Below, piece by piece: positions 5,527 through 34,570 of a stretch of DNA of 36,130 bases. Location: IMG/VR virus record IMGVR_UViG_3300007735_000676, positions 1 through 36,130 of that record. One strand, 5' to 3'. The stretch comes from a virus. The notes beneath the pieces were generated by a model, which was given only the letters and a program-made list of their open reading frames with translations, was not told the DNA's origin and did no database searches. Each line of letters begins with the position of its first letter. The stretch's first letter is position 1. A program made the translations under genes and the position numbers.

Positions 5527-6729
5527 ATGGCTCTAGGTCAAAATGACTTCAATGAGTTGTTATCCGCAACAATCCAAAAGATTGAGAAGCAACTCGTAGA
5601 TAACGTGCTAACCGCACACCCAACACTAGACTTCCTAAAAGCAAACGTAAAGTCTGCAACAGGACCGTCTGTTATATTCCCAATCATTGCAGCTGATGAT
5701 ACTTCAACAGTATTCACAGACGCATCGGGAACATTCTCAACTGCTAAATCAAGCGACATTTTAGGTGTTGCTAAATATGATTGGGCTGAACCACTAGTAT
5801 CAAAGGTTCGTGTTGAGTTCAAGCAATTAGAAATGAACAGCGGTCCAGAGGCTGTTGTATCATTAGCAAAGGCACACCTTGATGCTGCTGTTAAAGGACA
5901 TGGCAAGAAGATTGCTACTGTTCTACACACCGCAGGATCAGCTGGTGCTGGAGCTTTCAATACGCTAGACGAAATTATTTCAAATAGCGATAAGCTAACT
6001 ACAACCACTGCAAGAACTGTTGGTGGTATACGTGGTGGAGTTGCAACAAAATCAGTAACTAATTATGAGAGAGCTGGAACTACAGCAACTCTTACAATTG
6101 GAGCTAACGATTATATCGTTGGTGACTCTGTTGTTGTTACTGGTGTTATTCCAGCAGTCGCAGGTACGTTTACTCTTACCGCTGTTACTGCAACAACCAT
6201 AAGCTATACAACCGCAACTTCAGCAACTGTAGGAACTACTGCAACCACTGGTTCAGTAACTGCTGATGCTATCAAGACCTACTGGATAGCAACTGAGAAA
6301 TCACTTGCTAAGTCTGGTGGTTCTGCTGTTGATATCAGAGTAGCGTTTAGAACAATCTCTGATGACATCTATGTAGCTTCTGGTGAAAGACCAAATGCTA
6401 TCATAGCTGGTCGTGATGTATTCTCTGAGTATGAGAATTCATTTGATAGCAAGATACAGTATAACAATGTATCAGGAACTGGTGAGACTCGTTTCCGTCA
6501 GATTGATTTTGATGGTATTCCTGTTCGCCTTGATCCAGATGCTCCAGTTGATACTGCATATTTTATTAACACAGATTACCTTGTAGCTCGCTACTTGGCA
6601 TCTAACTTCATGAAGGCTATGCCAGCTCAACAGATTGTCGGTACTCTTGATACCGTAACTCCGTTGGCTACTGTTCTAACTTTTGGAACAAATAACCGCA
6701 GAGCTCATGGTAAGCTAGTACGTATCTGA
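5527..6729 (+). CDS. major capsid protein with inserted Ig-like domain
   Basis: 400 aa. It would build the icosahedral head. Residues 1-165 and 250-400 read as a phage capsid protein of HK97-type fold (FLKANVKSATGPSVIFP near the N terminus; RPNAIIAGRDVFSEYE and VRLDPDAPVDTAYFIN later). Between them, about residues 175-246 form a Thr/Val-rich beta domain (ATLTIGANDYIVGDSVVVTG followed by GTFTLTAVTATTISYTTA) that resembles Ig-like domains inserted in many phage surface proteins. The start follows an AAGGAG site. The gene is followed by a strong terminator, fitting a highly expressed product. Confidence 0.88.
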   Translation: MALGQNDFNELLSATIQKIEKQLVDNVLTAHPTLDFLKANVKSATGPSVIFPIIAADDTSTVFTDASGTFSTAKSSDILGVAKYDWAEPLVSKVRVEFKQLEMNSGPEAVVSLAKAHLDAAVKGHGKKIATVLHTAGSAGAGAFNTLDEIISNSDKLTTTTARTVGGIRGGVATKSVTNYERAGTTATLTIGANDYIVGDSVVVTGVIPAVAGTFTLTAVTATTISYTTATSATVGTTATTGSVTADAIKTYWIATEKSLAKSGGSAVDIRVAFRTISDDIYVASGERPNAIIAGRDVFSEYENSFDSKIQYNNVSGTGETRFRQIDFDGIPVRLDPDAPVDTAYFINTDYLVARYLASNFMKAMPAQQIVGTLDTVTPLATVLTFGTNNRRAHGKLVRI

Positions 6730-21761: not shown

Positions 21762-21828
21762 ATGTAGTATAACATGACTGTTATTAGACATATACCTACT
21801 ACCCGATAGGCAAAATGAGCGTGAAAAA

Positions 21829-21880
21829 CGACTATGAATTAAAGGAGACGAAGTGTTTCGTCTTGTCTTATAAATAGTCG
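21829..21880. other. attP: putative phage attachment site (attP), 52-bp dyad
   Basis: The site is exactly symmetric in layout: 7-base outer arms CGACTAT (21829-21835) and ATAGTCG (21874-21880), 10-base spacers, 7-base inner arms AGACGAA (21846-21852) and TTCGTCT (21857-21863), and a 4-base centre GTGT. The middle dinucleotide is TG (21854-21855), which is not self-complementary, as needed for directional crossover. Known attP sites of large serine integrases are about 50 bp imperfect inverted repeats with inner and outer binding motifs and a 2-bp core, usually beside the integrase gene. Here the integrase starts 190 bases downstream. An RNA hairpin is the alternative. Confidence 0.6.
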
Positions 21881-21915
21881 TATGCAAATAAAAATTAGTT
21901 AGCCACTATATAGCT

Positions 21916-22068
21916 ATGAATAGAGAACAAAAGAAAAAAGCTTTTATAAAATTATTTATAAAGCGGCTTGATGAAAAACAAATACGGGATATTCATCGTG
22001 CATTAAATAGAGCAATAGAAAATAACAGTCAGGTTATTGACAAACCAACTAAGAAAAAGGAGAATTAA
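21916..22068 (+). CDS. small basic protein upstream of integrase
   Basis: 50 aa, not recognised: a Lys/Arg-rich, helical sequence (MNREQKKKAFIKLF, LDEKQIRDIHRALNRAIENN). The stop codon is followed directly by the integrase ATG, and the integrase ribosome site lies inside its last codons, so coupling is possible. There is no clear ribosome site before its own ATG. It could be a small DNA-binding regulator of integrase, or a leader frame without function. Confidence 0.45.
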   Translation: MNREQKKKAFIKLFIKRLDEKQIRDIHRALNRAIENNSQVIDKPTKKKEN

Positions 22069-22069
22069 A

Positions 22070-23779
22070 ATGTCAGTAACAACAATCACAGCAGAAGATA
22101 TGAATATGCCAAAAAAGCGTCTTACTAAAATTGAAAGAGAGCAATTAGCCAGAACTTCATTTACCTATGAGATGAAGAAAAAGAAGGTTAATAAAAAAGT
22201 AAATACTGGTAAGAATAGAGTTTGTGTTTATAAACGTGTATCTATGTTAGCAGACCAATCAGTAACATTTGAAAGACAGTATAATGAGGTAAATACATTT
22301 CTTAAAAGTAATGGTATTGATTCTACCAATAGTGAAATAGTAGTATATGAAGAAGCTGAGTCAGGATACCAAAATAAACATAGACCTGTTCTACAAGAAA
22401 TGGTTGAACAAATCATTGATGGTAAATTTGACCATGTTGCATTTTATGATATAGATCGTTTAGCTAGAAATACAAAAGTATCAGCAGTATTAGATTCTAT
22501 TTTCAAAGAAGCTCAAGTTAAAGTATGGGTTAAAACATTAGGCAAGTCTATTGATACTACTACAATAGAGGGTGGTATCATTTGGAATATAATGAGCATG
22601 ATGGCAGAACATTATTCTCGTCAGACTTCTGATAGAACAACTGGTGGTCATAAAGTTAGAGCTACTGCTGGTGTAAAAAGAAATAGCGTAACACCTTTTG
22701 GATTAAAAGATAAAGAGATTGTTTCTGATTTAATTGGTGGTGTTAGAAAAATATATGATCTTGATACAGATATACAGAGTGAGTATCCAGTAGAGTATAA
22801 TAACAAAGCAGCTGTTGTAAAAGAAGTATATCGTAGATATAATGATGGACAATCATTGAAGTCTATTGCTCGTTGGTTAAATGATAATATACCTACAATC
22901 AAAGCTACCTCTTGGGATGATAGCACAGTTAAATATATGTTAAAGAACCCAGCTTATTTTGGTGGGTCACATTATAAGAAAGAAATAGTTAAAGATGTTA
23001 ATGGTGAGTATTTGATAACTAATGAACCATTGGTATCATTGGAGTATTGGATGAATACTCAGGCTTTAATTGAATCAAATACTCGTGCTTACAAGTCTAA
23101 GAAAATAAGACATACAAGATCTATGAGTCCATTACATTATATAGCTAAGTGTGAGTGTGGTGGTCAATTAAAGAGAAGCACATCAGCTACTCGTGGTACA
23201 CCATTCTTTGCACTAAAATGTATAGTTCCAACTATTGATAAGTCACGTTGCTCTGGTGTATCTATCTCACAGGTTCAATTAGAGAAAGAGATATTTGATT
23301 ATACTAAAGATATATTAGCTCAACCTGAACTATTAAAGTTATTTATAAAGAATACAGAACCTGTTAGTAAGATAACAATATCAAAAGATGAACAGAAAAT
23401 AATTGATGATATAGCTGAACTTAATAACCGTATTCAAATAGAGACATTAGATATGGTAAAGCAAATACTTATTACCGAAGTAGCTAATAAGAATGCTGAA
23501 CTAAATAAACTAAAAATGTCTACTAACATAATTGTTAATAAAGTAAAGAATAATAAGATAACAATAGAATCATTTGAAGCTGCTTGGAATAGTGAGGATA
23601 AAGCAGATATCAATGCGATACTATCCACACTATACAAATCAATTATCATAAGCAAGAGTACTATCTCTACTAGTGAACTCAATAAACTAAAGAGAGAAGG
23701 TTGGTCTGTTGATCCAAAGCGTGTTACTATTGAGCTACATAATGGTGATAAGATTAAATTAGATGCTCAATTAGTATAG
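22070..23779 (+). CDS. int: large serine recombinase (phage integrase)
   Basis: 569 aa. The N-terminal resolvase domain carries the catalytic serine S58 in VYKRVSMLADQS, then AFYDIDRLARN and the MMAEHYSRQTSDRTTGG segment. The Recombinase domain follows (KEVYRRYNDGQSLKSIARWL... AYFGG), then a zinc-ribbon part (KCECGGQL and later cysteines) and a C-terminal coiled coil. About 48 residues precede the catalytic domain, longer than usual. It would join attP to the host attB and, with a directionality factor, excise. The frame is open from 22037, but AAGGAG (22057-22062) supports the ATG at 22070. Confidence 0.93.
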   Translation: MSVTTITAEDMNMPKKRLTKIEREQLARTSFTYEMKKKKVNKKVNTGKNRVCVYKRVSMLADQSVTFERQYNEVNTFLKSNGIDSTNSEIVVYEEAESGYQNKHRPVLQEMVEQIIDGKFDHVAFYDIDRLARNTKVSAVLDSIFKEAQVKVWVKTLGKSIDTTTIEGGIIWNIMSMMAEHYSRQTSDRTTGGHKVRATAGVKRNSVTPFGLKDKEIVSDLIGGVRKIYDLDTDIQSEYPVEYNNKAAVVKEVYRRYNDGQSLKSIARWLNDNIPTIKATSWDDSTVKYMLKNPAYFGGSHYKKEIVKDVNGEYLITNEPLVSLEYWMNTQALIESNTRAYKSKKIRHTRSMSPLHYIAKCECGGQLKRSTSATRGTPFFALKCIVPTIDKSRCSGVSISQVQLEKEIFDYTKDILAQPELLKLFIKNTEPVSKITISKDEQKIIDDIAELNNRIQIETLDMVKQILITEVANKNAELNKLKMSTNIIVNKVKNNKITIESFEAAWNSEDKADINAILSTLYKSIIISKSTISTSELNKLKREGWSVDPKRVTIELHNGDKIKLDAQLV

Positions 23780-23800: not shown

Positions 23801-24193
23801 ATGAAGGGTGCTTTCTTAATACCAGGTGAGCAAGAAAGTGCCATAGCATTTTGTGATTTAGGTTGTTATAATGTCTATACTTTTTATGTAGATATAAAGC
23901 CTATGATGGGTAAGAAGTTAAAGCCCAATCCTAATGTATGTTATTATTGTATAGCTTGTGGTCGTAGGATATATAAGACTATTGACTGTATGATACATGA
24001 AGATAAATGTCCAGATTGGTTATGGTATAGTAGTTATACTATTATGTCAGACTTCTTAGATATAATAGAAGAAGAGACTGGTAGTAGAGATTGTAGTAGT
24101 CAGATCTATAATATAGCTGATCGTATTGCTAAAGTAAATAATAATATTAGTGGTCTTGATTTAGCAATGATGACACTTGATGCATTGTCTTAG
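23801..24193 (+). CDS. Cys-rich protein of unknown function
   Basis: 130 aa, not recognised. It contains FCDLGC near the N terminus, a CYYCIACGRR cluster and a further DCMIHEDKC, which could bind zinc. The C-terminal half is helical. No ribosome site precedes the ATG; a TATAAT at 23781-23786 lies only 14 bases before it, so a very short leader or leaderless mRNA is possible. The stop codon abuts, without a gap, the stop codon of the converging sigma-factor gene. Its place behind the integrase suggests a regulatory or lysogeny role, which is only a guess. Confidence 0.6.
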   Translation: MKGAFLIPGEQESAIAFCDLGCYNVYTFYVDIKPMMGKKLKPNPNVCYYCIACGRRIYKTIDCMIHEDKCPDWLWYSSYTIMSDFLDIIEEETGSRDCSSQIYNIADRIAKVNNNISGLDLAMMTLDALS

Positions 24194-24685
24194 TTACTCA
24201 TAGATAGATATATCATCAGTGCAAGTAACAGTTGGTATCTTCATTAGTTCTGATAACTCTTCTAATGTGATATTTAGTTTATCGGTTATTTGTTTATCTG
24301 TGTAATTTTGTTTTTTATAATAGATAAATAGATTATACTTTGGTGCAATTGCTTGTGGTATTTTAATAAGTGATTGACCATCTAATTCTTTTAGTAAAGA
24401 GTTCTTACAATATAATCTTATCCAAGCTGAGAGTTCACCTTTACTTGGATTCCAAGACCGTAAAGCTAAAGCCATACCTAGATAAGCAGCAGATTGTGCA
24501 TCCTCTAAGGATAACTTACCAATATACTTTTTAGCAAGGTTCTTAGCTAATGGCATATATAACTCCATTAACTCGGCTCTAGCTTTATCGGCTTCTTCTT
24601 TTAGCATTAGATTATTAGGGTCTTCAACACTACGCATAATTTTCTCTGCGAGATAAGAATGATTATTTGTAATGTTGAATTTCAC
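24194..24685 (-). CDS. phage-encoded sigma-70-family factor
   Basis: 163 aa. Residues about 35-110 fit sigma region 2: LYMPLAKNLAKKYIG, LEDAQSAAYLGMALALRSWN and GELSAWIRLYCKNSLLKEL correspond to the core-binding and -10-recognition helices. A second helical part (YTDKQITDKLNITLEELSELM) looks like a region 3/4-type helix-turn-helix but is short. It would bind host RNA polymerase and redirect it, possibly to the motif found before most operons here. The GTG start at 24685 overlaps the helicase stop (TAGTG) behind AAAGGTG. It is the last gene of the replication operon, so it would be made just before late genes. Confidence 0.72.
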   Translation of the reverse strand: MKFNITNNHSYLAEKIMRSVEDPNNLMLKEEADKARAELMELYMPLAKNLAKKYIGKLSLEDAQSAAYLGMALALRSWNPSKGELSAWIRLYCKNSLLKELDGQSLIKIPQAIAPKYNLFIYYKKQNYTDKQITDKLNITLEELSELMKIPTVTCTDDISIYE

Positions 24686-26313
24686 TAAAACACCTTTGAT
24701 GGAGCATCATCAGCATGGGTATCCCCATAGTCTGATAGATATGTTACTAGCGATGTAAGCATTTCTGTCTTACCATCATTGGCTTTTTCTAACTTTACAT
24801 AACCATTATCAACTAAGAACTTAAAGGCATCAGTAATAGTCTGACTTCTAAAGCCTGAACTGTTACGAGCTTCTGCTCTCTCCTTTAATATCTCTTTGAC
24901 ATTGGACTTACTTATTGGACCTGACTCATGAACTATCTCACTTACTTTCTCTGCAGCAATTAAATCAAATCGCTTCTCTGCTTGTATAGCAGCGTGTTCT
25001 TCAGCAGGTAATAGTTCTAGTCCAAGACCTTCTCTACTGTCATTTATAGGTTTAGATATTAGTATAGCAGCTACACGCTTACCAGATTTCTTACTAACTC
25101 TAATTCTACCTGGTCTATCTTTTGTGACAGTAATCTCAATACGACCCTCACTATAAACAGAGGCTGGTTCTTTTACTTCAAATGATAATGAAGTTCCAGA
25201 TACCGCAGCAAGTTTAGAACCTGCACCTCTTGGAGCTCGTGTTGAGAAACTTGATGTTGATATATTATTTTTTGTTACGTGGTCAATGACAATAACAGCA
25301 GCTCCTTGAGATGTGATAGGATAACTAACAGCATTGAGCCATTTGTTTACATCACCATTATCATTCTCATTTAGATCAGCTAGAGATATTGCAGTAGCAG
25401 CACCATCTAATACTACCATCTGTACATTATTATTCTTAATAGTCTTACTAATCATTCTAGTAAGTTTGATATCAAAGGCACGACCAGTAGATATGTAATA
25501 GAATAAAGCTTTACTCTTATCACGATTACCATCTTCACCAACTGGACCTGATACCCAGTCTAATATCTTTTCTTCTGGGTTCTCTATCTCTTGACCTACT
25601 GCTACTTTATATAGTCGCTCACATATTGTAATAGCATCATCTTCATAATCTACATAGACAACACCTTTACCATCAGAGAGTAATTGAACAGATGCAAGTA
25701 ATGCAGTAAATGATTTCAATGCTTCAGGTGGAGCAGATAACCAATTAAGTTTACCTGCATATAATAAACACTCACCATCTTTTCTACGTAAGATTGTTGG
25801 TACAACCTTAGCATAGTTACCATTTATCACAGATACCATTACAGATTCTAAATCAAAGAAACCATCATTGACATCTTTACTAGATACCTCTAATAGTTTC
25901 TCAAAAGCAAATGTATCATCTGAACCATTTAGAACAGATACAGCAATTTGTTCAGCTGCTTTTATCTTCTCACGTTTGCGTGATAGTTCTAATAGGATAT
26001 TGACATTATCTTTTAATGTCTTAGTATCAGATGCTTCTGCTGTTAGATTTTTTAGGTATACTTCACTTACATTGTTTAGCATATTGCTACTACGAAGTTG
26101 TTCTACAATAGAAGCTAAACCAGTTTTATTCTCAATAGATGCAGTACATATTGCATAATATATACTACCATTTCTATTACTACTAAAATCATTTGGGTTG
26201 ATTAGAGTAGCTACTAAATCAAGAGCAGTTGGATCAGTAAGTAGCGTACCAAGTATGGCAGCTTCAGCTGATAGGTTCTTTAATCCAACATCCTCATTTG
26301 TTGTCGTTGTCAT
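24685..26313 (-). CDS. replicative helicase, DnaB-N domain with RepA/KaiC-like ATPase
   Basis: 542 aa. Residues 12-75 (LSAEAAILGTLLTDP...FSSNRNGSIYYAI) match the N-terminal domain of DnaB. A RecA-fold ATPase follows: the P-loop region is SAPPEALKSFTALLA with K200-S201 kept but both glycines replaced, Walker B ends in VVLDG (D303), and IDHVTK (H345) fits the sensor motif. The C terminus (about 450-525) looks like a winged helix. It would unwind DNA at the phage origin, using host primase and polymerase. The gene overlaps the RusA gene by 20 bases. Confidence 0.8.
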   Translation of the reverse strand: MTTTTNEDVGLKNLSAEAAILGTLLTDPTALDLVATLINPNDFSSNRNGSIYYAICTASIENKTGLASIVEQLRSSNMLNNVSEVYLKNLTAEASDTKTLKDNVNILLELSRKREKIKAAEQIAVSVLNGSDDTFAFEKLLEVSSKDVNDGFFDLESVMVSVINGNYAKVVPTILRRKDGECLLYAGKLNWLSAPPEALKSFTALLASVQLLSDGKGVVYVDYEDDAITICERLYKVAVGQEIENPEEKILDWVSGPVGEDGNRDKSKALFYYISTGRAFDIKLTRMISKTIKNNNVQMVVLDGAATAISLADLNENDNGDVNKWLNAVSYPITSQGAAVIVIDHVTKNNISTSSFSTRAPRGAGSKLAAVSGTSLSFEVKEPASVYSEGRIEITVTKDRPGRIRVSKKSGKRVAAILISKPINDSREGLGLELLPAEEHAAIQAEKRFDLIAAEKVSEIVHESGPISKSNVKEILKERAEARNSSGFRSQTITDAFKFLVDNGYVKLEKANDGKTEMLTSLVTYLSDYGDTHADDAPSKVF

Positions 26314-26692
26314 TTCTTTCTCGCATTTCTATTTTTATGTAGCAGAGATTATCATTATCAATACGCAAGACTGGTTCTGCTACGCTAATCCATTCTGCTG
26401 TATCGTCAGGCACTAAGCCCTCTTCAACTAATACATCAATAAGTTTCTTTACTGTCGCTATGTAGTTATGTGGATCTCTTCTTGCTTTCTTATTAAATGT
26501 AAAAGTAAATTGTAAGTTCATTGGAGCAACATCAATATCTTCAACTGCAATAAGTTTTGAATATGCAATTTTTAGATTGATTGCCCAATCTTGAAAGTAA
26601 CGTCTTCTCTTAGACCAGTGCATACTATATGCTTGGTTAAGTGAGAGAGGTTTAGATGGTTGTTCAAATACAATTAAGTATTCTTTATTCAC
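26294..26692 (-). CDS. rusA: RusA-like Holliday junction resolvase
   Basis: 132 aa. The family pattern is clear: the basic SKRRRYFQDW near residues 27-36, RRDPHNYIATVKKLIDVLV (D73, N76, K82/K83, D86) and GLVPDD (D96, D97), the acidic residues that bind metal. The dimer cuts four-way junctions formed during replication and recombination before packaging. The GTG start overlaps the stop of the gp3-like gene (GTGA) behind AAAGG, and the 3' end overlaps the helicase gene, so the operon is tightly packed. Confidence 0.9.
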   Translation of the reverse strand: MNKEYLIVFEQPSKPLSLNQAYSMHWSKRRRYFQDWAINLKIAYSKLIAVEDIDVAPMNLQFTFTFNKKARRDPHNYIATVKKLIDVLVEEGLVPDDTAEWISVAEPVLRIDNDNLCYIKIEMRERNDNDNK

Positions 26693-27768
26693 TCTAAACC
26701 TTTCTTCTTTTTAGCATCAGTTAGTTTCTTAATAATTTCTTTTGCTTGATTACTAGATAAGTTCTTTGATGTAGTGACACCATATTGTTTTAGTCCAAGA
26801 CGATACTGCTCGTCTGTTATGCCGAGCTCTTTTTTAAGTATCTGTATTCTTTGGATTTCTGATTTAGTTATAGTATCATCTTCAAATGGGTTATCAAAAT
26901 CAACATCACCTACTGGCTTTATTGGTTCTTCTATTCTAGTTATCTCAGCTTCTACAAAATTCTCTTCTGTAATTATTGCTGGTGGTAACTCATCAAGTTT
27001 CTTTACAGGTTCAGTATAATATGCAGTCTCTTTCTTTTCTTCAAACTCTGGTTCTGGTATAGATACTGCTAATGGAGTAGCAATTTGTTTTGGTTGAACT
27101 GGAGTATTTGATATAGCTGCAATAGCTTCTTGTATTGTTGCACCAACTTCTAATACAGGTACAGCAAAGCGTGATGTTCTACCACCACGTTTAGCTGAAC
27201 GTTGTTCTAATCTTAGAGTAGCTGGTAAGTATTTATCTGAGGCAGATACTTGTTGTAGTAGCTCAGCAATTCCTGCTAACTCAACGGCTGCGTGATAACC
27301 ATGACTCTCTAACCGCCATATCCCAACTGTCTTTACATTTGGTAGTATCACTGACAATCTGGTTGTAGGTCTACAAGCCTGTCCTTTACTTGATAATTCA
27401 GACCTCTGTGATTGATCAGCAGGACAACGGCATGGAGTATTATTTATTGTCTCTGTCTGACCATCACATCTACGTTGACAACCAGCACCACTCCACATTT
27501 CATACCATTGAGTTAGCGAGTTACCGGGTGGAATGGTTACATCTAAAACATTTGTATTGGTTACTAATTCAAAAGCATCACCATCAGGTGAACTCCAAGT
27601 AACTACATTACCGCCATATATTTCAGAGGCAGCTTGTAATGCTTCTTTTGATTTTGATGTTAATCTAAATCTATCTAGTTTAGTTGGAGCTCCTTTTTCT
27701 GATCTTGCTCCTAATCTAATTCTACCAACCTCTGTTAGTTTTCTTTGTAGGTTAATTATTGGACTCAT
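26689..27768 (-). CDS. gp3-like protein, candidate recombination directionality factor, with fused C-terminal domain
   Basis: 359 aa from the ATG at 27768, which fits the GGAGG site better than the ATG one codon earlier. Residues about 15-215 carry the features of the phiC31/phiBT1 gp3 family as I know it: GRIRLG, KLDRFRLTS, IYGGNVVTW, IPPGNSLTQWYEMWSGAGC, RRCDG, a set of cysteines, TTRLSVILP and GIWRLESHGYHAAVELA. In phiC31, gp3 binds the serine integrase and switches it to excision. An acidic Pro/Glu linker and a helical domain of about 55 residues (ILKKELGITDEQYRLGLKQYG) follow, so the protein may have a second role in replication. Confidence 0.72.
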   Translation of the reverse strand: MSPIINLQRKLTEVGRIRLGARSEKGAPTKLDRFRLTSKSKEALQAASEIYGGNVVTWSSPDGDAFELVTNTNVLDVTIPPGNSLTQWYEMWSGAGCQRRCDGQTETINNTPCRCPADQSQRSELSSKGQACRPTTRLSVILPNVKTVGIWRLESHGYHAAVELAGIAELLQQVSASDKYLPATLRLEQRSAKRGGRTSRFAVPVLEVGATIQEAIAAISNTPVQPKQIATPLAVSIPEPEFEEKKETAYYTEPVKKLDELPPAIITEENFVEAEITRIEEPIKPVGDVDFDNPFEDDTITKSEIQRIQILKKELGITDEQYRLGLKQYGVTTSKNLSSNQAKEIIKKLTDAKKKKGLE

Positions 27769-28564
27769 CATTACCTCCTATTACAGGTCGTATTGGAGCT
27801 GATAGAACTTCTTTACTTTTTTCATGTTGCCATTTGAAAGCCATTTGTAAATGTCTAAAGTATTTGAATGTATCTTTACCAACTTCACAAGGCACAACCT
27901 CATAAGATCTTGGTCTTAGTTTTACAACAATAGCTCCATCACATTCAGGTAATTCTGTCTCTACACCATTTGGTAGTAAGACTTTATCTGCATGTTTGTA
28001 AGCAGATAATTGTAGAGCAGCTTCTGGATATGGACCAGATGCAGATGTTTTCCAGTCAATAAGATATCGACCAACTAAACCTAACTTTGGATTATTAAAG
28101 TTAGCAACAGCATCTATCGTACCTGCATATCCATACTTGTATGATATCACAGTTGCTTCAGACATTTCCCATTGTGGTTTGAATATCTCTTCAAAGTTTA
28201 GATATGATTTGATAAATGGTTTTACTTGATCTGTTAGTGAGTTGATATCTAAGTTCTCACCAAGTATTCTTTTTTCTACAGCTTCATGAACTGCACTACC
28301 AAGATTAGCAGATGATTCTGTTGTTCGCCATGGGCTACCTTTAATTAAATCAAGAGCTCCCTTTGGATCTTTCTCTGCAATTGGTAACCATGTTGCTCTT
28401 TCTTCTACTGCATAAGTAGCTACTTGCTTACCTACCCAGTAACGTAAAGCTGGTTTATCTAGAGTTGATAATACACTTGTCACAGATACAAATTTTTCAT
28501 TTGTACTTGGTGAAGTATAGTAACGAACTCCGTCAATAGTTTGACTATGTATAGGTTGTGTCAT
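27752..28564 (-). CDS. PD-(D/E)XK nuclease, RecB/Cas4-like
   Basis: 270 aa. The nuclease motifs appear in order: GSAVHEAVE (H93), a glutamate around position 136, GTIDAV (D151), LIDWKT (D170, K172) and the helix with ALQLSAYK (Q185). These belong to the RecB/lambda-exonuclease-like fold. It is probably a 5'-3' exonuclease for recombination-linked replication or end processing. It is the first gene of the replication operon, starts behind AAGGAG, and its end overlaps the gp3-like gene. No CRISPR genes accompany it, so Cas4 function is not implied. Confidence 0.85.
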   Translation of the reverse strand: MTQPIHSQTIDGVRYYTSPSTNEKFVSVTSVLSTLDKPALRYWVGKQVATYAVEERATWLPIAEKDPKGALDLIKGSPWRTTESSANLGSAVHEAVEKRILGENLDINSLTDQVKPFIKSYLNFEEIFKPQWEMSEATVISYKYGYAGTIDAVANFNNPKLGLVGRYLIDWKTSASGPYPEAALQLSAYKHADKVLLPNGVETELPECDGAIVVKLRPRSYEVVPCEVGKDTFKYFRHLQMAFKWQHEKSKEVLSAPIRPVIGGNDESNN

Positions 28565-28953: not shown

Positions 28954-29742
28954 ATGGCAGAGAAAGCTAAGTCCATATTATCATATTCAAAACAAGCACC
29001 TAAGTTAGGTTATCGTTTAGTCACTCCATTACAACAACCAATAGCTACAAGAACTAAGACTCCAATACTACCTGTTATGGGTGGAGTTAATATAAATGTT
29101 CCTAATCCAATAATGCCAAGTCAGCAACGCACACCAATCAATTTACCAATGGCTGATAGACTTATAAATAGACCTGCTCCTATTGCACCAGTGAAAGATA
29201 AATCAGAAAACAAAAAACCTTTAGAGTGGGGATTCAAAGGTAGAAAGAAAACTGATATTGACTATGAACCATTTTATAGTCTATTAGAAGAAACTTTTAG
29301 AGGTCCAAGTTCTGCTTTAGATGAAGAAGAAAGAAATTCTCAACGTAAAGCACAGAAAATTATAGATAGAAATATTAAGAAACTTGAAATAGCTGCAAAG
29401 AAAAATAAATATATTGCTGACCAAATTGATAGATACGGTGAAGAATCATTAAGTATTATAAATCAAAATTTAATTGCTATGGAAAGAATTGGTGTACCAA
29501 GAGAGTTAACTGGTAAAATGCTAAATAATAATCTAGGTTTAGGTTATCTTGCTAGATTGGATCAGAAAGGTACACCTGCAGGATCTTGGACTATTAAAAA
29601 ACAAATGACAGAGGATTGGAAAACAGGATGGCTACGATATTATAATGAGTTAACTAAATCTCAGAAAGAAACCTTTAATAGTTTATCTAATGAGTGGTAT
29701 GGTTCTCCTAATGAATTAGTAGATACAGTAAAGTCTTTATAA
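28954..29742 (+). CDS. hypothetical protein, possibly virion-associated
   Basis: 262 aa, no family recognised. The first 90 residues are Pro-rich and probably flexible; from about residue 110 the chain is helical and charged (SQRKAQKIIDRNIKKLEIAAKK), then contains NNNLGLGYLARLDQKGTPAGSW and a Trp-rich end. The ATG at 28954 has no good ribosome site and follows the previous gene by six bases, so coupled translation is likely. The Pro-rich start resembles the internal virion proteins in this phage, but a DNA-related role cannot be excluded. Confidence 0.5.
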   Translation: MAEKAKSILSYSKQAPKLGYRLVTPLQQPIATRTKTPILPVMGGVNINVPNPIMPSQQRTPINLPMADRLINRPAPIAPVKDKSENKKPLEWGFKGRKKTDIDYEPFYSLLEETFRGPSSALDEEERNSQRKAQKIIDRNIKKLEIAAKKNKYIADQIDRYGEESLSIINQNLIAMERIGVPRELTGKMLNNNLGLGYLARLDQKGTPAGSWTIKKQMTEDWKTGWLRYYNELTKSQKETFNSLSNEWYGSPNELVDTVKSL

Positions 29743-29756
29743 ACAAGACACATAAT
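29743..29756 (+). promoter_or_regulatory. GACA-type promoter-like motif before the small-protein block
   Basis: ACAAGACACATAAT is identical over 14 bases to the copy at 4343-4356. CATAAT (29751-29756) would be the -10 element. It starts one base after the stop of the preceding gene and lies before the DUF6496-like gene at 29787. Confidence 0.55.
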
Positions 29757-29786
29757 AATTTGAGTAACCTATGAGGAGGTTATATT

Positions 29787-29939
29787 ATGAAAAATAATAA
29801 AGTAAATAAAGTCATGAAAGAATACAAAGCTGGAACATTACACTCAGGTAAGAAAGGTCCAGTAGTTAAGTCAAAGAAACAAGCAGTTGCAATAGCTTTA
29901 TCTGAAGCAGGTAAATCTCGTGGCACAAAAAAGAAGTAA
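29787..29939 (+). CDS. DUF6496-like small basic protein
   Basis: 50 aa. The sequence KVMKEYKAGTLHSGKKGPVV followed by KSKKQAVAIALSEAGKSRG is the recognisable core of the short Lys-rich proteins grouped as DUF6496, found in many bacteria and phages; function is unknown. A very good GAGGAGG site precedes the ATG. The end overlaps the next gene by 20 bases. The basic character suggests nucleic-acid binding. Confidence 0.75.
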   Translation: MKNNKVNKVMKEYKAGTLHSGKKGPVVKSKKQAVAIALSEAGKSRGTKKK

Positions 29940-30192
29940 AGATCCTAGACTAACAAGAGCTGGTGTTACTGGTTATAATAAACCTAAGAGAACACCAAGT
30001 CACCCAACTAAATCACATATTGTTGTTGCTAAAGATGGCGACCAAATAAAGACAATTAGATTTGGTCAGCAAGGTGTAACAGGTGATAGACAACCTACTG
30101 CACGTCAGGCTTCATTCAAAGCAAGACATGCTAAGAACATTGCTAAGGGTAAAATGTCTGCAGCTTACTGGAGTAATCTTACTAAATGGTGA
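29920..30192 (+). CDS. basic protein of an environmental-phage family (DUF6321/DUF5872-like)
   Basis: 90 aa. RTPSHPTKSHIVVAK, IRFGQQGVTGDRQ and ASFKARHAKNIAKGKMSAA-type sequence form a pattern I know from many marine and freshwater virus proteins of unknown function; the exact family number needs a search. It starts at GTG 29920 inside the DUF6496-like gene, without a strong ribosome site, so coupled translation is likely. Its strongly basic nature suggests nucleic-acid binding or capsid association. Confidence 0.65.
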   Translation: MAQKRSKDPRLTRAGVTGYNKPKRTPSHPTKSHIVVAKDGDQIKTIRFGQQGVTGDRQPTARQASFKARHAKNIAKGKMSAAYWSNLTKW

Positions 30193-30228
30193 CAGTACAA
30201 CAAAGAGCAGATAAGGTCAAGTGGTAAT

Positions 30229-30612
30229 ATGGCATATACTAAACCAGAGTTACGAAATAAAATAAAGAGTAGAGTAACTGCATCTACTAAGGGTGGTAAG
30301 GCAGGTCAATGGTCTGCAAGAAAAGCTCAGATAGTAGCACAAGAATATGAGAAGGCTGGTGGTGGATATACCGGTAGTAAAACTAAATCTCAATCATCTT
30401 TATCTAAATGGACTAAAGAAGAATGGGGAACTAAATCTGGTAAGAGATCACAAGATACAGGTGAAAGATACTTACCTAAGAAAGCAAGAGAGTCTTTGAG
30501 TTCAGCTGAATATGCTAGAACAACTGCAAAGAAAAGAAAAGATACTCGTGCTGGTAAACAGTTTAGTAAGCAACCTAAATCTATTGCCACTAAAACTTCT
30601 AAGTATCGTTAA
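30229..30612 (+). CDS. DUF5872-like basic protein
   Basis: 127 aa. YTKPELRNKIKSRV, GGKAGQWSARKAQIVAQEYEK, SLSKWTKEEWGTKSGK and RYLPKKARESLSSAEYA follow the pattern of the DUF5872 type, widespread in aquatic viruses and bacteria, with unknown function. It is Lys/Arg-rich and probably binds nucleic acid. It is the last of three neighbouring basic proteins and is followed at once by a bidirectional terminator. Confidence 0.7.
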   Translation: MAYTKPELRNKIKSRVTASTKGGKAGQWSARKAQIVAQEYEKAGGGYTGSKTKSQSSLSKWTKEEWGTKSGKRSQDTGERYLPKKARESLSSAEYARTTAKKRKDTRAGKQFSKQPKSIATKTSKYR

Positions 30613-30619
30613 AAAGAAA

Positions 30620-30657
30620 TAAGACCCCAGCTAAATAAAGTGAGTGCTGGGGTCTTA
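30620..30657. terminator. bidirectional terminator between converging operons
   Basis: A 12-base-pair perfect stem (TAAGACCCCAGC at 30620-30631 with its complement at 30646-30657) closes a 14-base loop. AT-rich tracts lie on both sides: ATATTATTT on the plus strand, ATTTCTTTTT on the minus strand. It lies between the stop at 30612 (+) and the stop at 30661 (-), so it can end both transcripts. Confidence 0.88.
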
Positions 30658-30660
30658 ATA

Positions 30661-30930
30661 TTATTTACAGATAAGTTGTTTCTTATTATATTGACATACT
30701 AAACGAAAGTTAGGATTTCTACTATCCATTACAATCCATTTATTATTTTTCATTTTCTTGAAAGAAAAAGTATCGCTACAATTTATGTTAGCTACTTTAT
30801 TATCCATTACTACTAAACAAGTATATCTATTATTCAAGTTAGATAGAGTAGTTGCTTTGGCATAATGATCTGGTACAATTAGTGCTACTACTGTAGCAAC
30901 TAAAAGAGTTAATAGTATTTTCTTTATCAC
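30661..30930 (-). CDS. small secreted protein with signal peptide
   Basis: 89 aa. The start MIKKILLTLLVATVVALIVP followed by DHYAKA is a typical secretion signal, with a cleavage site likely after AKA. The mature part is about 60 residues and has four cysteines (YTCLVV, NINCSD, RLVCQY, LICK), which could form two disulfide bonds. The GTG start overlaps the stop of the 44-residue membrane protein. Such small secreted phage proteins may act in the envelope, for example in superinfection exclusion, but this is inference. Confidence 0.68.
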   Translation of the reverse strand: MIKKILLTLLVATVVALIVPDHYAKATTLSNLNNRYTCLVVMDNKVANINCSDTFSFKKMKNNKWIVMDSRNPNFRLVCQYNKKQLICK

Positions 30931-31061
30931 TTGAATACACCTTCATATAGCATAGCTCTACGATCTGCATCACGTCTTTCTTGAATTCTTTTTTCTTCTT
31001 CTGGATTAGCTAAGGAGAAGCTAACTATTCCTAAGAGAACTGCGAGTGCAATTAGTTCCAT
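30927..31061 (-). CDS. small membrane protein
   Basis: 44 aa. A hydrophobic segment (LIALAVLLGIVSFSLA) is followed by a charged helix (PEEEKRIQERRDADRRAM). AAGGA lies six bases before the ATG, and the stop overlaps the GTG of the secreted protein by three bases. It is probably a single-pass inner-membrane protein of the same operon; the function is unknown. Confidence 0.65.
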   Translation of the reverse strand: MELIALAVLLGIVSFSLANPEEEKRIQERRDADRRAMLYEGVFK

Positions 31062-31072
31062 TGTGAGTTCCT

Positions 31073-31225
31073 TTACTCTGTATCTTCTTTTACAATAGTT
31101 GCTACTTTCATTTTAACAATTCTCTTTTTCTTATCGTAGCAATCATAGCAAGTTAGTCTACTGGTATTATGTGATGTCATAAAGTATCTTAATCTACGGC
31201 AAGACTTACATTTATATGTTGGCAT
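31073..31225 (-). CDS. small zinc-ribbon protein
   Basis: 50 aa. CKSC near the N terminus and CYDC (residues about 26-29) form a two-knuckle zinc ribbon, followed by a Lys-rich helix. It overlaps the end of the WhiB gene by 14 bases and is 11 bases before the small membrane gene, so it fits the same operon. The ribosome site is poor. It could be a small nucleic-acid-binding regulator. Confidence 0.55.
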   Translation of the reverse strand: MPTYKCKSCRRLRYFMTSHNTSRLTCYDCYDKKKRIVKMKVATIVKEDTE

Positions 31226-31799
31226 TTTTTTTGTTTACCAATCTATAAATAACATGGTCATTTTTTATACATAGATATGAGTTATATTTTTTATAATTTA
31301 CCATGATTGTATTCATTGGTGCAACAACTAAATCATGTTCTTTACAGATAACATATTTACTAGTACGTTTTAATTTGTTTAGTTTAATTATTTTGTTTCT
31401 ATACATAGTTAGTTTATCGTCTATATTTTGTATAGATTTTTTTATTAGTTCTGTTGAGACATTGTATCTTTGATCTTTGTCTTCATATTTTTTTAGCTCT
31501 ACTCTTTGCACTGGTGTAGTTCCAGCAAAAAAACCATAACCTAAAAACCTTTCATTGTTATCTTCAAACATCATTATAGTATCAAGACATTGACGTCTTA
31601 CAGGACATTCAATACAACTTTTTTGTAACTTATGTTTAACTAATGTTTGATTAAACTTATTGCTATTAAATAATATATCACTATCATAGTCTTTACAATT
31701 AGCTTCAGTGACCCAATCTGGATCTATTGAAGTAGTTGCTTTTTCAAATTGTTCTAGAAATATATCTCTCTCATCTAAACCTTCTTGTTCTGTATTCAT
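31212..31799 (-). CDS. whiB-like: WhiB-family [4Fe-4S] transcription factor with extended C terminus
   Basis: 195 aa. The four cluster ligands are C35, C62, C65 and C71 (NCKDYDSD ... SCIECPVRRQC), followed by GYGFFAGTTPVQR in place of the usual G-[IV]-W-G-G turn. WhiB proteins bind the sigma region 4 of the main sigma factor and change promoter choice; phage copies, such as WhiB of phage TM4, can block host gene expression. After residue 105 a second part of about 90 residues contains CKEH and CIKNDH, possibly another metal site; most WhiB proteins end much earlier. It heads a four-gene operon. No ribosome site is visible; a 15-bp dyad lies just before the ATG. Confidence 0.85.
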   Translation of the reverse strand: MNTEQEGLDERDIFLEQFEKATTSIDPDWVTEANCKDYDSDILFNSNKFNQTLVKHKLQKSCIECPVRRQCLDTIMMFEDNNERFLGYGFFAGTTPVQRVELKKYEDKDQRYNVSTELIKKSIQNIDDKLTMYRNKIIKLNKLKRTSKYVICKEHDLVVAPMNTIMVNYKKYNSYLCIKNDHVIYRLVNKKNANI

Positions 31800-31802
31800 A
31801 CT

Positions 31803-31817
31803 GCTAATGTTATTAGC
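31803..31817. promoter_or_regulatory. 15-bp dyad before whiB, possible operator or start-site hairpin
   Basis: GCTAAT (31803-31808) and ATTAGC (31812-31817) are perfect inverted repeats around GTT. The dyad ends three bases before the whiB ATG (31799). It could be a binding site for a regulator of whiB, or an RNA hairpin when included in the transcript. Confidence 0.45.
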
Positions 31818-31863
31818 TTAGATATATTTGCATAAACTTATACCCATAATTAAACCAATAATA

Positions 31864-31892
31864 TACCAACAGAATAATGGGCGTTGTTGGTA
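31864..31892 (-). terminator. possible terminator after the C5 methyltransferase
   Basis: TACCAACA (31864-31871) and TGTTGGTA (31885-31892) are perfect 8-base inverted repeats. Read on the minus strand the hairpin begins 14 bases after the methyltransferase stop at 31906 and is followed by an AT-rich but not T-rich tract, so it is a weak terminator at best. Confidence 0.4.
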
Positions 31893-31905
31893 GAACTTGT
31901 ATAGC

Positions 31906-32295
31906 TTATTCATTGAAACCTTTTACTAACCAATCAACAACTGGTACAGCTACTGCATTACCCATTTGCTTGTATCGGTTACTGTCAGCCATTGTGCTTG
32001 TCCAGTCATCTGGAAATCCTTGTAGTCTTTCACACTCTTTGGGTGTTAGTCTTCTTACTTGTTTCTTTGCAACCATTGGAACATTATTACCACCAGTTCC
32101 CATCTGTGCAGTTAGTGTGTTAATAACATCAGTTTGTATTCTTGCACCATCTTGTTGATGTGGTTTGAATACTATTGTTGTTGCTCTTGTATCTCCTTTG
32201 TCAAATGAATTTAGTGTTGGCACAACACCACCCTCTTTCCATGTTTCATTATCTTCATTAGTTTGAGCTCTTTTACTTTTGTTGAACCACGTCAT
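31906..32295 (-). CDS. C5 cytosine methyltransferase, C-terminal part (target recognition and motifs IX-X)
   Basis: 129 aa. VRRLTPKECERLQGFPDDWT and RYKQMGNAVAVPVV are motifs IX and X of DNA cytosine-5 methyltransferases; the first half (WFNKSKRAQTNEDNETW, VVPTLNSFDKGDTRATT) belongs to the variable target-recognition part. The ATG at 32295 lies 23 bases inside the end of the N-terminal gene, in another frame. Either this is a natural two-subunit enzyme, as in M.AquI where two overlapping genes encode the halves, or one gene broken by a frameshift. A modest AGAG site lies before the ATG, which mildly supports separate translation. Confidence 0.8.
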   Translation of the reverse strand: MTWFNKSKRAQTNEDNETWKEGGVVPTLNSFDKGDTRATTIVFKPHQQDGARIQTDVINTLTAQMGTGGNNVPMVAKKQVRRLTPKECERLQGFPDDWTSTMADSNRYKQMGNAVAVPVVDWLVKGFNE

Positions 32296-33046
32296 TATTA
32301 TTCTCTATCACTAGCATACCAGTATTAACATCTTGATTTGTAATAGAACTCTTATGATATAACTCAGCTGGGATACAATTACATATATCTTTATTGTTAG
32401 CTAGTTCTTTGCTTGACTCTCCAAAGCTTTCTGCAACTTCTCTGGTAGTGTCTTGCCCCTGCGGTTTGCTCTGCGTAGTATTCCCTGACACGCTACCTCG
32501 CTCAAATAATACTTTGAAGATACGCTCTGTTCCAGAACGGCTGCCAACGATGAAGACACGCCGCCTTCGTTGGGGAACTCCGAAGTATTGTGCATCAAAC
32601 ACACGCCATCCGACACTATACCCGAGCTCAGCCAACGACCCGAGTACGATTCCAAAGTCTTTTCCTCCGTTACTTGAAAGAAGACCGGGTACATTTTCGA
32701 GGATGAAGTTTTCGCTTTTCGTTTCTTCCAAAAGTCTATGAGCTTCCCAGAATAACCCGCTTCTCGAGCCAGATAGACCAGCCCTTTTTCCAGCCACGCT
32801 AAGGTCTTGGCAGGGAAATCCTCCTGTGATAATTCCATTTGTAGGGTTGAATCCATCATTGATTAAGTCCTTTCCTTTGACTTCTTTTATATCTGTGTAT
32901 CGCTTGGTATTTGGAAAATGTAGAGCTAATACTTCATTACATTTTTTATCTATCTCTACACTTGCTACTACATCATAACCATTATTACGTAATGCTAAAT
33001 CAAATCCACCGACACCTGCAAATAAAGATACTGCTGTTAGTTTCAC
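32273..33046 (-). CDS. C5 cytosine methyltransferase, N-terminal catalytic part
   Basis: 257 aa. Motif I is FAGVGGFD (9-16), motif IV GGFPCQD with catalytic C79, motif VI ENV (117-119) and motif VIII QRRRRVF (159-165). It transfers a methyl group from AdoMet to cytosine C5, probably to protect phage DNA from host nucleases or to regulate it. Motifs IX and X are missing here and lie in the overlapping gene at 31906-32295. The start is GTG at 33046 without a ribosome site, exactly seven bases after a GACACATA box, so the mRNA may be leaderless. A second frame is open across most of this gene. Confidence 0.88.
   Translation of the reverse strand: MKLTAVSLFAGVGGFDLALRNNGYDVVASVEIDKKCNEVLALHFPNTKRYTDIKEVKGKDLINDGFNPTNGIITGGFPCQDLSVAGKRAGLSGSRSGLFWEAHRLLEETKSENFILENVPGLLSSNGGKDFGIVLGSLAELGYSVGWRVFDAQYFGVPQRRRRVFIVGSRSGTERIFKVLFERGSVSGNTTQSKPQGQDTTREVAESFGESSKELANNKDICNCIPAELYHKSSITNQDVNTGMLVIENNNDVVQQK
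32401..32859 (-). CDS. overprinted ORF inside the C5 methyltransferase gene
   Basis: 152 aa, fully inside the methyltransferase catalytic gene in another frame, the same frame as its C-terminal half. It has its own good ribosome site, AAAGGA eight bases before the ATG at 32859. LSEVACQGILRRANRRGKTLPEKL near the C terminus (split here: LSEVACQGILRR, ANRRGKTLPEKL) is a pattern I recall from other phage and bacterial proteins, many of which also overlap C5 methyltransferases. G+C in the overlap is about 43-58% per 60-base line, against 32% just upstream, as expected if two frames limit drift. Function is unknown; a methyltransferase partner is possible. Confidence 0.6.
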   Translation of the reverse strand: MMDSTLQMELSQEDFPAKTLAWLEKGLVYLAREAGYSGKLIDFWKKRKAKTSSSKMYPVFFQVTEEKTLESYSGRWLSSGIVSDGVCLMHNTSEFPNEGGVSSSLAAVLEQSVSSKYYLSEVACQGILRRANRRGKTLPEKLQKALESQAKN

Positions 33047-33049
33047 ATC

Positions 33050-33065
33050 ATTATATGTGTCTTAC
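33050..33065 (-). promoter_or_regulatory. GACA-type promoter-like motif at the C5 methyltransferase start
   Basis: Read on the minus strand: GTAAGACACATATAAT. The box GACACATA ends seven bases before the GTG start at 33046, which fits a leaderless transcript. It lies between the two methyltransferase genes. Confidence 0.55.
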
Positions 33066-34570
33066 AATTCTAGTTGCTCTTGCTTAGCTTTTTCTTTTAC
33101 TTCTTTTCTTGCCCATGCTACTCTACCTTTTATGATAGGTAGATAATCCTCTGTCATCTCGCAACCTTTCCATTCAAAGCCATCAAGTATTGCAGCTACT
33201 GCTGTTGTACCTGAACCTAAGAAAGGATCTAATACAGTTCCTTTGGGTGGTGTGATCAGCTTGATTAGATACCTCATTAGTTCAATTGGTTTAACTGTTG
33301 GGTGGAAGTTGGCAGTTGGTTTATTTCTATCGTTACCTTTTGCTACATCTTCTGTATAACCTTTTGCATTACTACCACCGGGTTTCTTTTCTAAGTTATC
33401 TAATCCTGCATTGCGTTCTTTCTTACCTGCTTTGGCTTGATAGATAAATGGGGTAATGTCATCTGCTGGTGTCCATTGGGAGTTGTGGAAGAAGCGTGAT
33501 GCTCCGCCTGTATCGCTGTAAAATGTAGCACCATCATCACCTCTTTGCTCATAGTCACCATAGATACCTCTACTCTTACCACTGTGTCCTGATTTAACAG
33601 GAGCAAACGCACCAGCATTACCACTCTGTTGGTTTAGTGTGGCTACTGGGCAGTTGGGTGTGCAGGTATATGTGGTTGTTGTGATTGGTGTTGCTTCTGT
33701 ATTAGCTCTATTAGTTCCCCAACCTTCTGATTGTTTTGTATTTTCAAATGATATATTTTGTGCAACATCTTCATTATTTGTGCCAGTTGCTTGGCAGTCG
33801 TGGTTGTGTGTGAGTAGTGTGTTAGCTGGGAAGCGACCTTTAAGGTAATCATCTGTGACACTGCCCCTTATTTTACTAGCATTCATACCTGCGTTTGGAG
33901 ATATATCGTTATACTCAGTTGGTTTTCTATATAACTCTTTTGTATTACTAGTACCAATCCTTGTAGCATCAATGTTAATACCACCTGTCTTATATTGCAA
34001 TACATTCTCTGCGACAGTTCCTATGAGTGGCTTCCTAGCTAGGACAATTGGTTCATGTGATGGTTTTAGGGCAGTTCCCCAGCCTTGCCATTGCTTGGCT
34101 TCTTTGGTTGATGGTGCTGTGATTGATACATCTGCTGTCTTGCTACCTGCTGTGAAGTTACCGCCTTGCATACCTACATTGGTGCGTTGTGTTCCAACTA
34201 CCTTACGCTCTGCCTTAGCTGCTTTATCAATAGCCTTACTTATATCTAAACTCTTTGGAAAGCCACTACCATAGGTCCAATGAATACTATCTCTGATCTC
34301 AAACCCAGCATCCTCAATTGCTACTGACATACGATGATAGGTTCTTGTACCACCAAATGCAAGTAGATGACCACCTGGTTTTAATACTCTTAAACATTCT
34401 TGCCATAGAGATACTTGATATGCTACACCTGAGTTGTCCCACTCCTTGCCCATAAAACCTAACTCATAAGGTGGATCAGTAACTATACTATCTATGCTGT
34501 CATCTGGTAATGTCTTTAATGTATCTAGGCAATTGCCTACTAATAATCTTTGTTCAATGTAATCACTCAC
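33062..34570 (-). CDS. DNA N6-adenine or N4-cytosine methyltransferase (beta class)
   Basis: 502 aa. The catalytic motif IV DPPY (32-35) comes first, then a long target-recognition part, then the AdoMet-binding motif DPFLGSGTT (448-456), the order of the beta class (N6_N4_Mtase family). HPTVKPIELMRYLI just before motif I is also typical. It would methylate adenine N6 or cytosine N4 at a specific site; no restriction enzyme is nearby, so it is an orphan, probably protective. About 250 residues between the motifs are longer than usual. The GTG start at 34570 has no ribosome site and follows a GACACATA box by seven bases, which suggests a leaderless mRNA. Confidence 0.9.
   Translation of the reverse strand: MSDYIEQRLLVGNCLDTLKTLPDDSIDSIVTDPPYELGFMGKEWDNSGVAYQVSLWQECLRVLKPGGHLLAFGGTRTYHRMSVAIEDAGFEIRDSIHWTYGSGFPKSLDISKAIDKAAKAERKVVGTQRTNVGMQGGNFTAGSKTADVSITAPSTKEAKQWQGWGTALKPSHEPIVLARKPLIGTVAENVLQYKTGGINIDATRIGTSNTKELYRKPTEYNDISPNAGMNASKIRGSVTDDYLKGRFPANTLLTHNHDCQATGTNNEDVAQNISFENTKQSEGWGTNRANTEATPITTTTYTCTPNCPVATLNQQSGNAGAFAPVKSGHSGKSRGIYGDYEQRGDDGATFYSDTGGASRFFHNSQWTPADDITPFIYQAKAGKKERNAGLDNLEKKPGGSNAKGYTEDVAKGNDRNKPTANFHPTVKPIELMRYLIKLITPPKGTVLDPFLGSGTTAVAAILDGFEWKGCEMTEDYLPIIKGRVAWARKEVKEKAKQEQLEL

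Follow-up and report, generated by a model that had tools for sequence, protein, structure and literature searches.

The gp3 protein of phage phiC31 is routinely used in reversible DNA switches, and together with phiBT1 gp3 and TG1 gp25 it is one of the recombination directionality factors (RDFs) of the Gp3-like family (PF18897). No account of the original role of phiC31 gp3 in phage biology was found in the literature, and a full-text search of the open-access literature on the family name and accession returned no paper treating the wider function of the Gp3-like family. Other functions for some RDFs have been suggested in general terms (PMC3132441), and conservation is higher on the RDF surface than on that of the integrase (PMC11530663). 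The C-terminal domain of the lambda annealing protein Red-beta binds lambda exonuclease and single-stranded DNA-binding protein (SSB; PMC8303780). Here we analysed a Gp3-like protein encoded in the virus record IMGVR_UViG_3300007735_000676 (positions 1 to 36,130; this whole stretch of 36,130 nucleotides is called the window), which is probably a single-stranded DNA (ssDNA)-binding or annealing protein that works together with the product of the neighbouring exonuclease gene, the two forming a two-component recombinase of the lambda Red or RecET kind.

The open reading frame (ORF) of the Gp3-like protein is real, runs on the minus strand from 27771 to 26689, encodes 360 aa and begins with the residues MMSP; the second Met, at 27768, lies 5 nt after an AGGAGG and is a likelier start than 27771. 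The PF18897 profile matches aa 15-209 with an E value of 5.4e-42 and 144 bits, relative to a cut-off of 23.6, and the solved phiC31 RDF was matched by sequence with an E value of 0.002. An AlphaFold (AF2) model built with 96 relatives had a mean predicted local distance difference test (pLDDT) value of 84, with the core and the C-terminal domain above 90 and a disordered linker between them. The fold is that of the phiC31 RDF structure 9teh_I (Z 19.4 over 199 aligned residues, 19% identity), and a second modelled family member, of the Streptomyces type, gave a Z value of 18.7 against 9teh. The core domain (approximately aa 12-216; 27124..27738, minus strand) is beta-rich and OB-like, with conserved cysteines at positions 98, 102, 114, 116 and 133 that form a putative zinc site. 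After 9teh, the structural matches of the core were mostly OB-fold ssDNA-binding proteins (gp32 cores, SSBs, RPA and BRCA2), and this was so for two separate models, at weak Z values of 3 to 4.4. Profile searches matched the core to the Gp3-like family only and found no N-terminal annealing domain of RecT/Red-beta or ERF in the window protein. In an unrooted tree of 132 cores (quick maximum-likelihood search), the phiC31-type proteins make up one side of a 99% branch, and the window protein sits in a long branch, whose cores carry a net positive charge (median +3; 82% above 0) and whose tails are acidic, whereas all 15 of the phiC31-type cores examined are net negative. The core charge in the long branch would be compatible with ssDNA binding, although it is no proof of it.

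The core is followed by an acidic disordered linker (approximately aa 217-296; 26884..27123, minus strand) with a net charge of -10 and low pLDDT, and by a C-terminal domain (aa 297-360; 26692..26883, minus strand) of three modelled helices at residues 303-316, 320-330 and 340-359, with a pLDDT of about 95. This domain is of the Red-beta/RecT C-terminal type, as indicated by structure and by family-level sequence matches. Residues 297-358 superimposed on the Red-beta C-terminal domain bound to lambda exonuclease (6m9k) with a Z value of 9.3 and a root-mean-square deviation of 1.5 A over 61 residues, and on the same domain with an SSB peptide (8tg7) with a Z value of 9.4 (1.5-1.8 A across both structures), whereas the best unrelated helical protein reached a Z value of only 3.5. 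A profile made from the tails of Gp3-like proteins found the Red-beta C-terminal domain (residues 200-248) and the C terminus of the RecT of Arthrobacter phage Jinkies; against the whole PDB, the Red-beta domain took ranks 1 and 2 (E 0.04 and 0.058), the next entry having an E value of 2.4. Individually, 7 of 12 tails matched the RecT family phrog_4171 (best E 6e-7), at profile positions 302-361 of 392, which is the C-terminal part (two members checked), and alignment of a Gp3-like tail with the RecT C terminus by hhalign gave an E value of 5e-8. When the tail profile was run over approximately 21,000 ORFs from all loci, it matched only Gp3-like proteins, 28 in number. A plain phmmer search of the window tail against the PDB gave no match, with a query that contained errors in its first residues.

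A sequence-only reading of this DNA had assigned the N-terminal part of the protein to the gp3 family and had noted the acidic linker and the helical C-terminal domain, all of which held up in the profile search and the model. It had also taken the C-terminal part as lying beyond the phiC31 form; this part is present, but it is normal for the branch, in which most relatives have approximately 320-460 aa, and it is the phiC31 form, with 244 aa, that is short.

The conservation of gene neighbourhood was evaluated in 162 gp3-bearing loci (80 viral-contig and 73 genome loci came from scans), which include near-copies and a few duplicates of the window. An exonuclease gene lies on the same strand as the gp3-like gene in 153 of the 162 loci, abuts it in 110 and is within approximately 1.5 kb in 151; in a control set of 3,200 other ORFs that lie on the same strand and have at least 150 aa, 19 abutted the exonuclease. 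Among the closest annotated phage relatives, the Streptomyces phages mu1/6 and VWB as well as SF3 have the exonuclease as the gene directly before the gp3-like gene, and in MinS1 one short gene separates the two. It was found that in phage Jinkies and five viral contigs a homologous exonuclease (hidden Markov model (HMM) E values of 1e-28 to 1e-37) precedes RecT instead; these six are without a gp3-like gene, and all six of the RecTs matched the HMM of the gp3 tails. Conversely, RecT and ERF were each found in 0 of 50 whole records that carry a gp3-like gene. The gp3-like gene is thus best read as occupying the slot usually filled by RecT/Red-beta. For more distant exonucleases (Itty13, Pan2 and CN1A), inspection of the downstream genes showed no clear partner.

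In the window, the exonuclease gene (27752..28564, minus strand) encodes a PD-(D/E)XK protein of phrog_298 (E 4.6e-42) with conserved E, YAG..D and Q motifs; it lies upstream of the gp3-like gene and overlaps its start by 17-20 bp. Downstream on the same strand, and overlapping the gp3-like gene by 4 bp, is the gene of a RusA-like Holliday junction resolvase (26294..26692; phrog_34, E 5e-7), followed by a helicase-like protein with domain matches to DnaB-N and AAA_25 (24685..26313) and, at the end of the operon, a sigma-70 region 2 protein (24194..24685; PF04542, E 4e-7). The gp3-like gene is therefore situated among replication genes, as had been read from the sequence, in an overlapping operon with the exonuclease, RusA and the DnaB-like helicase. 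The sigma-70 region 2 gene is also kept in the relatives L010 and L011.

The ssDNA binding, annealing and docking on exonuclease or SSB are predicted activities, which could be combined as follows. The exonuclease encoded upstream would resect double-strand ends, and the gp3-like core would coat the resulting single strand and probably anneal it. The Red-beta-type C-terminal domain, on its flexible acidic linker, would dock on the exonuclease, the host SSB or both, so that the core could be loaded while the strand becomes exposed, and the RusA and helicase proteins from the same operon may process the resulting joints and forks.

Several observations weigh against this interpretation. The Red-beta-type tail is recognisable by sequence in only 28 of the 162 loci, and the window's own tail matches by sequence phrog_286 and weakly GemA, not RecT. 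In the Streptomyces-type member that was modelled, the C terminus differs, and the structure search returned no Red-beta entry for it; the idea that all family tails are Red-beta-like was therefore rejected, and homology is claimed only for tails of the kind found in the window protein and its kin. The phiC31-type branch is without such a tail, and its exonuclease gene is often 1-5 genes off. The OB-fold scores are weak (Z of 4.4 at most) and need not mean ssDNA binding. Lastly, phiC31 gp3 in the absence of integrase gave no shift of att-site DNA, in an experiment in which ssDNA was not the question (PMC3132441).

The alternative that survives best, which we regard as possible although rather doubtful, is that the window protein is the RDF of the large serine integrase encoded at 22037..23779 (plus strand), clamping the coiled-coil hinge of the integrase and turning on the attL x attR reaction as phiC31 gp3 does; this is compatible with the exonuclease partnership as a second role. 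The family and fold are those of phiC31 gp3, and both elements that the sequence-only reading had named along with it are present: the integrase matched PF00239, PF07508 and phrog_95 (E 1.8e-80; upstream starts are possible, and there is an in-frame ATG at 22070), and upstream of int there is a 54-bp attP-like imperfect dyad (21828..21881, plus strand) with 25-nt arms that are 76% complementary, which none of 300 Markov shuffles equalled. The residues G27, C117 and G119 of phiC31 gp3 are needed for integrase binding (PMC5814800), and they correspond to G16, C102 and G104 of the window protein, where they are kept. However, all 41 members of the long branch from phages with tyrosine integrases have these residues without variation, so that they may reflect the fold. 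The window protein belongs to this long branch, of which we know of no member that is a proven RDF.

The integrase class of the relatives was assessed by scanning 50 whole records, some of which may be fragments, with PF07508 for serine and PF00589 for tyrosine integrases; labels outside these records and the phage sample came from small seed HMMs applied to 10-kb flanks. PF07508 was found in 9 of the 50 records, PF00589 in 24 (23 over the cut-off) and both together in none; because the records may be fragments, those without an integrase match are not callable as lytic. MinS1, mu1/6, VWB and SF3 all have tyrosine integrases, and mu1/6 carries a separate annotated excisionase of its own. On the tree, the phiC31-type side has 11 proteins with a serine integrase, 4 without an integrase match and none with a tyrosine integrase, whereas the long branch is a mixture of 41 tyrosine and 18 serine labels, interleaved with each other. 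To account for the labels of the entire tree, 14 changes are needed, compared to a mean of 22.5 for shuffled labels; the labels are thus still more clustered than shuffled ones, which is what near-copies would produce. Cores that are 92-95% identical occur with either class: locus L040 (serine) compared to L039 and L046 (tyrosine), and L042 (serine) compared to L036 (tyrosine). Microbacterium phage Celaena, the genome of which is complete, has an annotated RDF and no integrase match.

Therefore, because relatives more often have tyrosine integrases, because near-identical cores occur with either class and because complete genomes without an integrase match carry the phiC31-type version, what is conserved across the family is linkage to the exonuclease, not to the integrase. 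With tyrosine integrases the commoner class among relatives, the serine integrase in the window was rejected as support for an RDF role, and the view of gp3, integrase and attP as a matched excision set, the core inference of the sequence-only reading, was not supported. Of the further suggestion that the C-terminal domain links excision to replication or recombination, the link to recombination is supported by the Red-beta/RecT match of this domain. We also considered, and rejected, the divergence of integrase and gp3-like protein between the window and its close relative L010 (integrases 23.5% identical) as evidence against an RDF role, as the TG1 and phiC31 systems are alike in this and yet cross-react despite diverged integrases (PMC11530663).

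The phiC31-type gene has matches in 229 phage records. Several Microbacterium and Curtobacterium phages (L166 at 24805-25554, L167, L168 and L177) carry a phiC31-type gp3, mostly annotated as RDF, with no serine or tyrosine integrase match.

It is unlikely that the window protein is instead a general replicative SSB of the gp32 or T7 gp2.5 kind that acts at the fork, its C-terminal domain docking a helicase or replisome rather than the exonuclease. The OB-like core, with the RB69 and T4 gp32 cores among its structural matches, the DnaB-like helicase in the operon and the occurrence of an SSB (PF00436) in only 4 of the 50 whole records are consistent with such a role, but the gene is linked most tightly to that of the exonuclease, RecT is the partner of related exonucleases in this position, and the tail homologue, the Red-beta C-terminal domain, binds exonuclease and SSB. 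Moreover, most ssDNA-binding proteins of the gp32/gp2.5 type have a short acidic tail and no folded three-helix domain, unlike the window protein. We give similarly little weight to the proposal that the phage's RDF is another gene and that the gp3-like protein is unrelated to excision: the candidate, a Cys-rich protein of 130 aa (23801..24193, plus strand), lies 22 bp downstream of int on the same strand, has a counterpart of 41% identity in L010, next to a very different integrase, and has precedent in the small RDFs of phages TP901-1, SPbeta and A118 (PMC5814800), but it has no homologue of known function and no phage database match, and the two integrases beside which it is kept share just 23.5% identity.

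Some further features of the window are as follows. A C5 cytosine methyltransferase (31906-33046, minus strand) consists of two overlapping ORFs, 32273-33046 with the N-terminal motifs and 31906-32295 apparently with the C-terminal part; it is either a split enzyme or a frameshift, and relative L011 too has a second short ORF at its C5 methyltransferase (6129-6470). Next to it, an N4/N6 DNA methyltransferase of 502 aa (33062-34570, minus strand) has a long insert between motif blocks, and its L011 counterpart is 50% identical. A WhiB-like regulator (31212-31799, minus strand; phrog_472, E 1e-11) points to an actinobacterial host despite the G+C content of the window of approximately 35%. A second contig, L001, is 98% identical to the window and differs at 29207-32064, in the region that separates the methyltransferases from the exonuclease operon.

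Taking the exonuclease partnership as the role of the window protein, the phiC31, phiBT1 and TG1 RDFs would represent a branch of the family that lacks the tail, is acidic and acts for serine integrases. Because exonuclease linkage occurs in both branches of the unrooted tree, we infer that the recombination role came first and the RDF role later or as an addition. More broadly, there is about an even chance that the whole RDF-annotated family is a distinct class of exonuclease-coupled ssDNA-binding or annealing proteins, with a gp3/OB-like core and an exchangeable tail, the phiC31-type RDFs being one branch in which a lytic-phase recombination protein was taken over by serine integrases as an excision signal. 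The name of the Gp3-like family reflects few tested members; the family now gains a concrete and testable proposed role, as a phage exonuclease partner in the RecT/Red-beta slot and with the docking domain of those proteins. If this is true, the exonuclease-partner role could account for the stronger conservation of the RDF surface relative to that of the integrase (PMC11530663). It would also be a warning that many phage "RDF" labels need not mean an excision factor, as some carriers are without an integrase match, and it might provide new recombineering proteins for actinobacteria.

In comparison to known systems, the window protein resembles phiC31 gp3, phiBT1 gp3 and TG1 gp25 in core fold, family profile, invariant glycines and the CDG motif, and in having an exonuclease gene upstream, as phiC31 does and, with its homologues, phiBT1 and TG1. 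It differs in that the phiC31-type proteins are approximately 240 aa long, acidic and tail-less and accompany serine integrases (11 of 15 examined, 4 with none and 0 with tyrosine), whereas in the window protein the core is followed by a linker and C-terminal domain, and its branch is one in which integrase class varies freely. With T4/RB69 gp32 and bacterial SSBs it may share an OB-like beta core (weak structural scores, Z 3-4, and no sequence match) and, in the case of gp32, a zinc site; these proteins end in a short acidic tip instead of a folded domain. The window tail matches phrog_286 (E 1e-7) and Mu GemA (PF06252; E 0.005, below its cut-off), GemA being a stand-alone protein without a gp3 core. 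As in lambda Red-beta and the RecT annealing proteins (Jinkies gp41, phrog_4171), there is a three-helix C-terminal domain, a linker and an exonuclease gene adjoining or nearly so, and the difference lies in the core, which has the gp3 fold in the window protein and the RecT/Rad52-like annealing fold in Red-beta and RecT.
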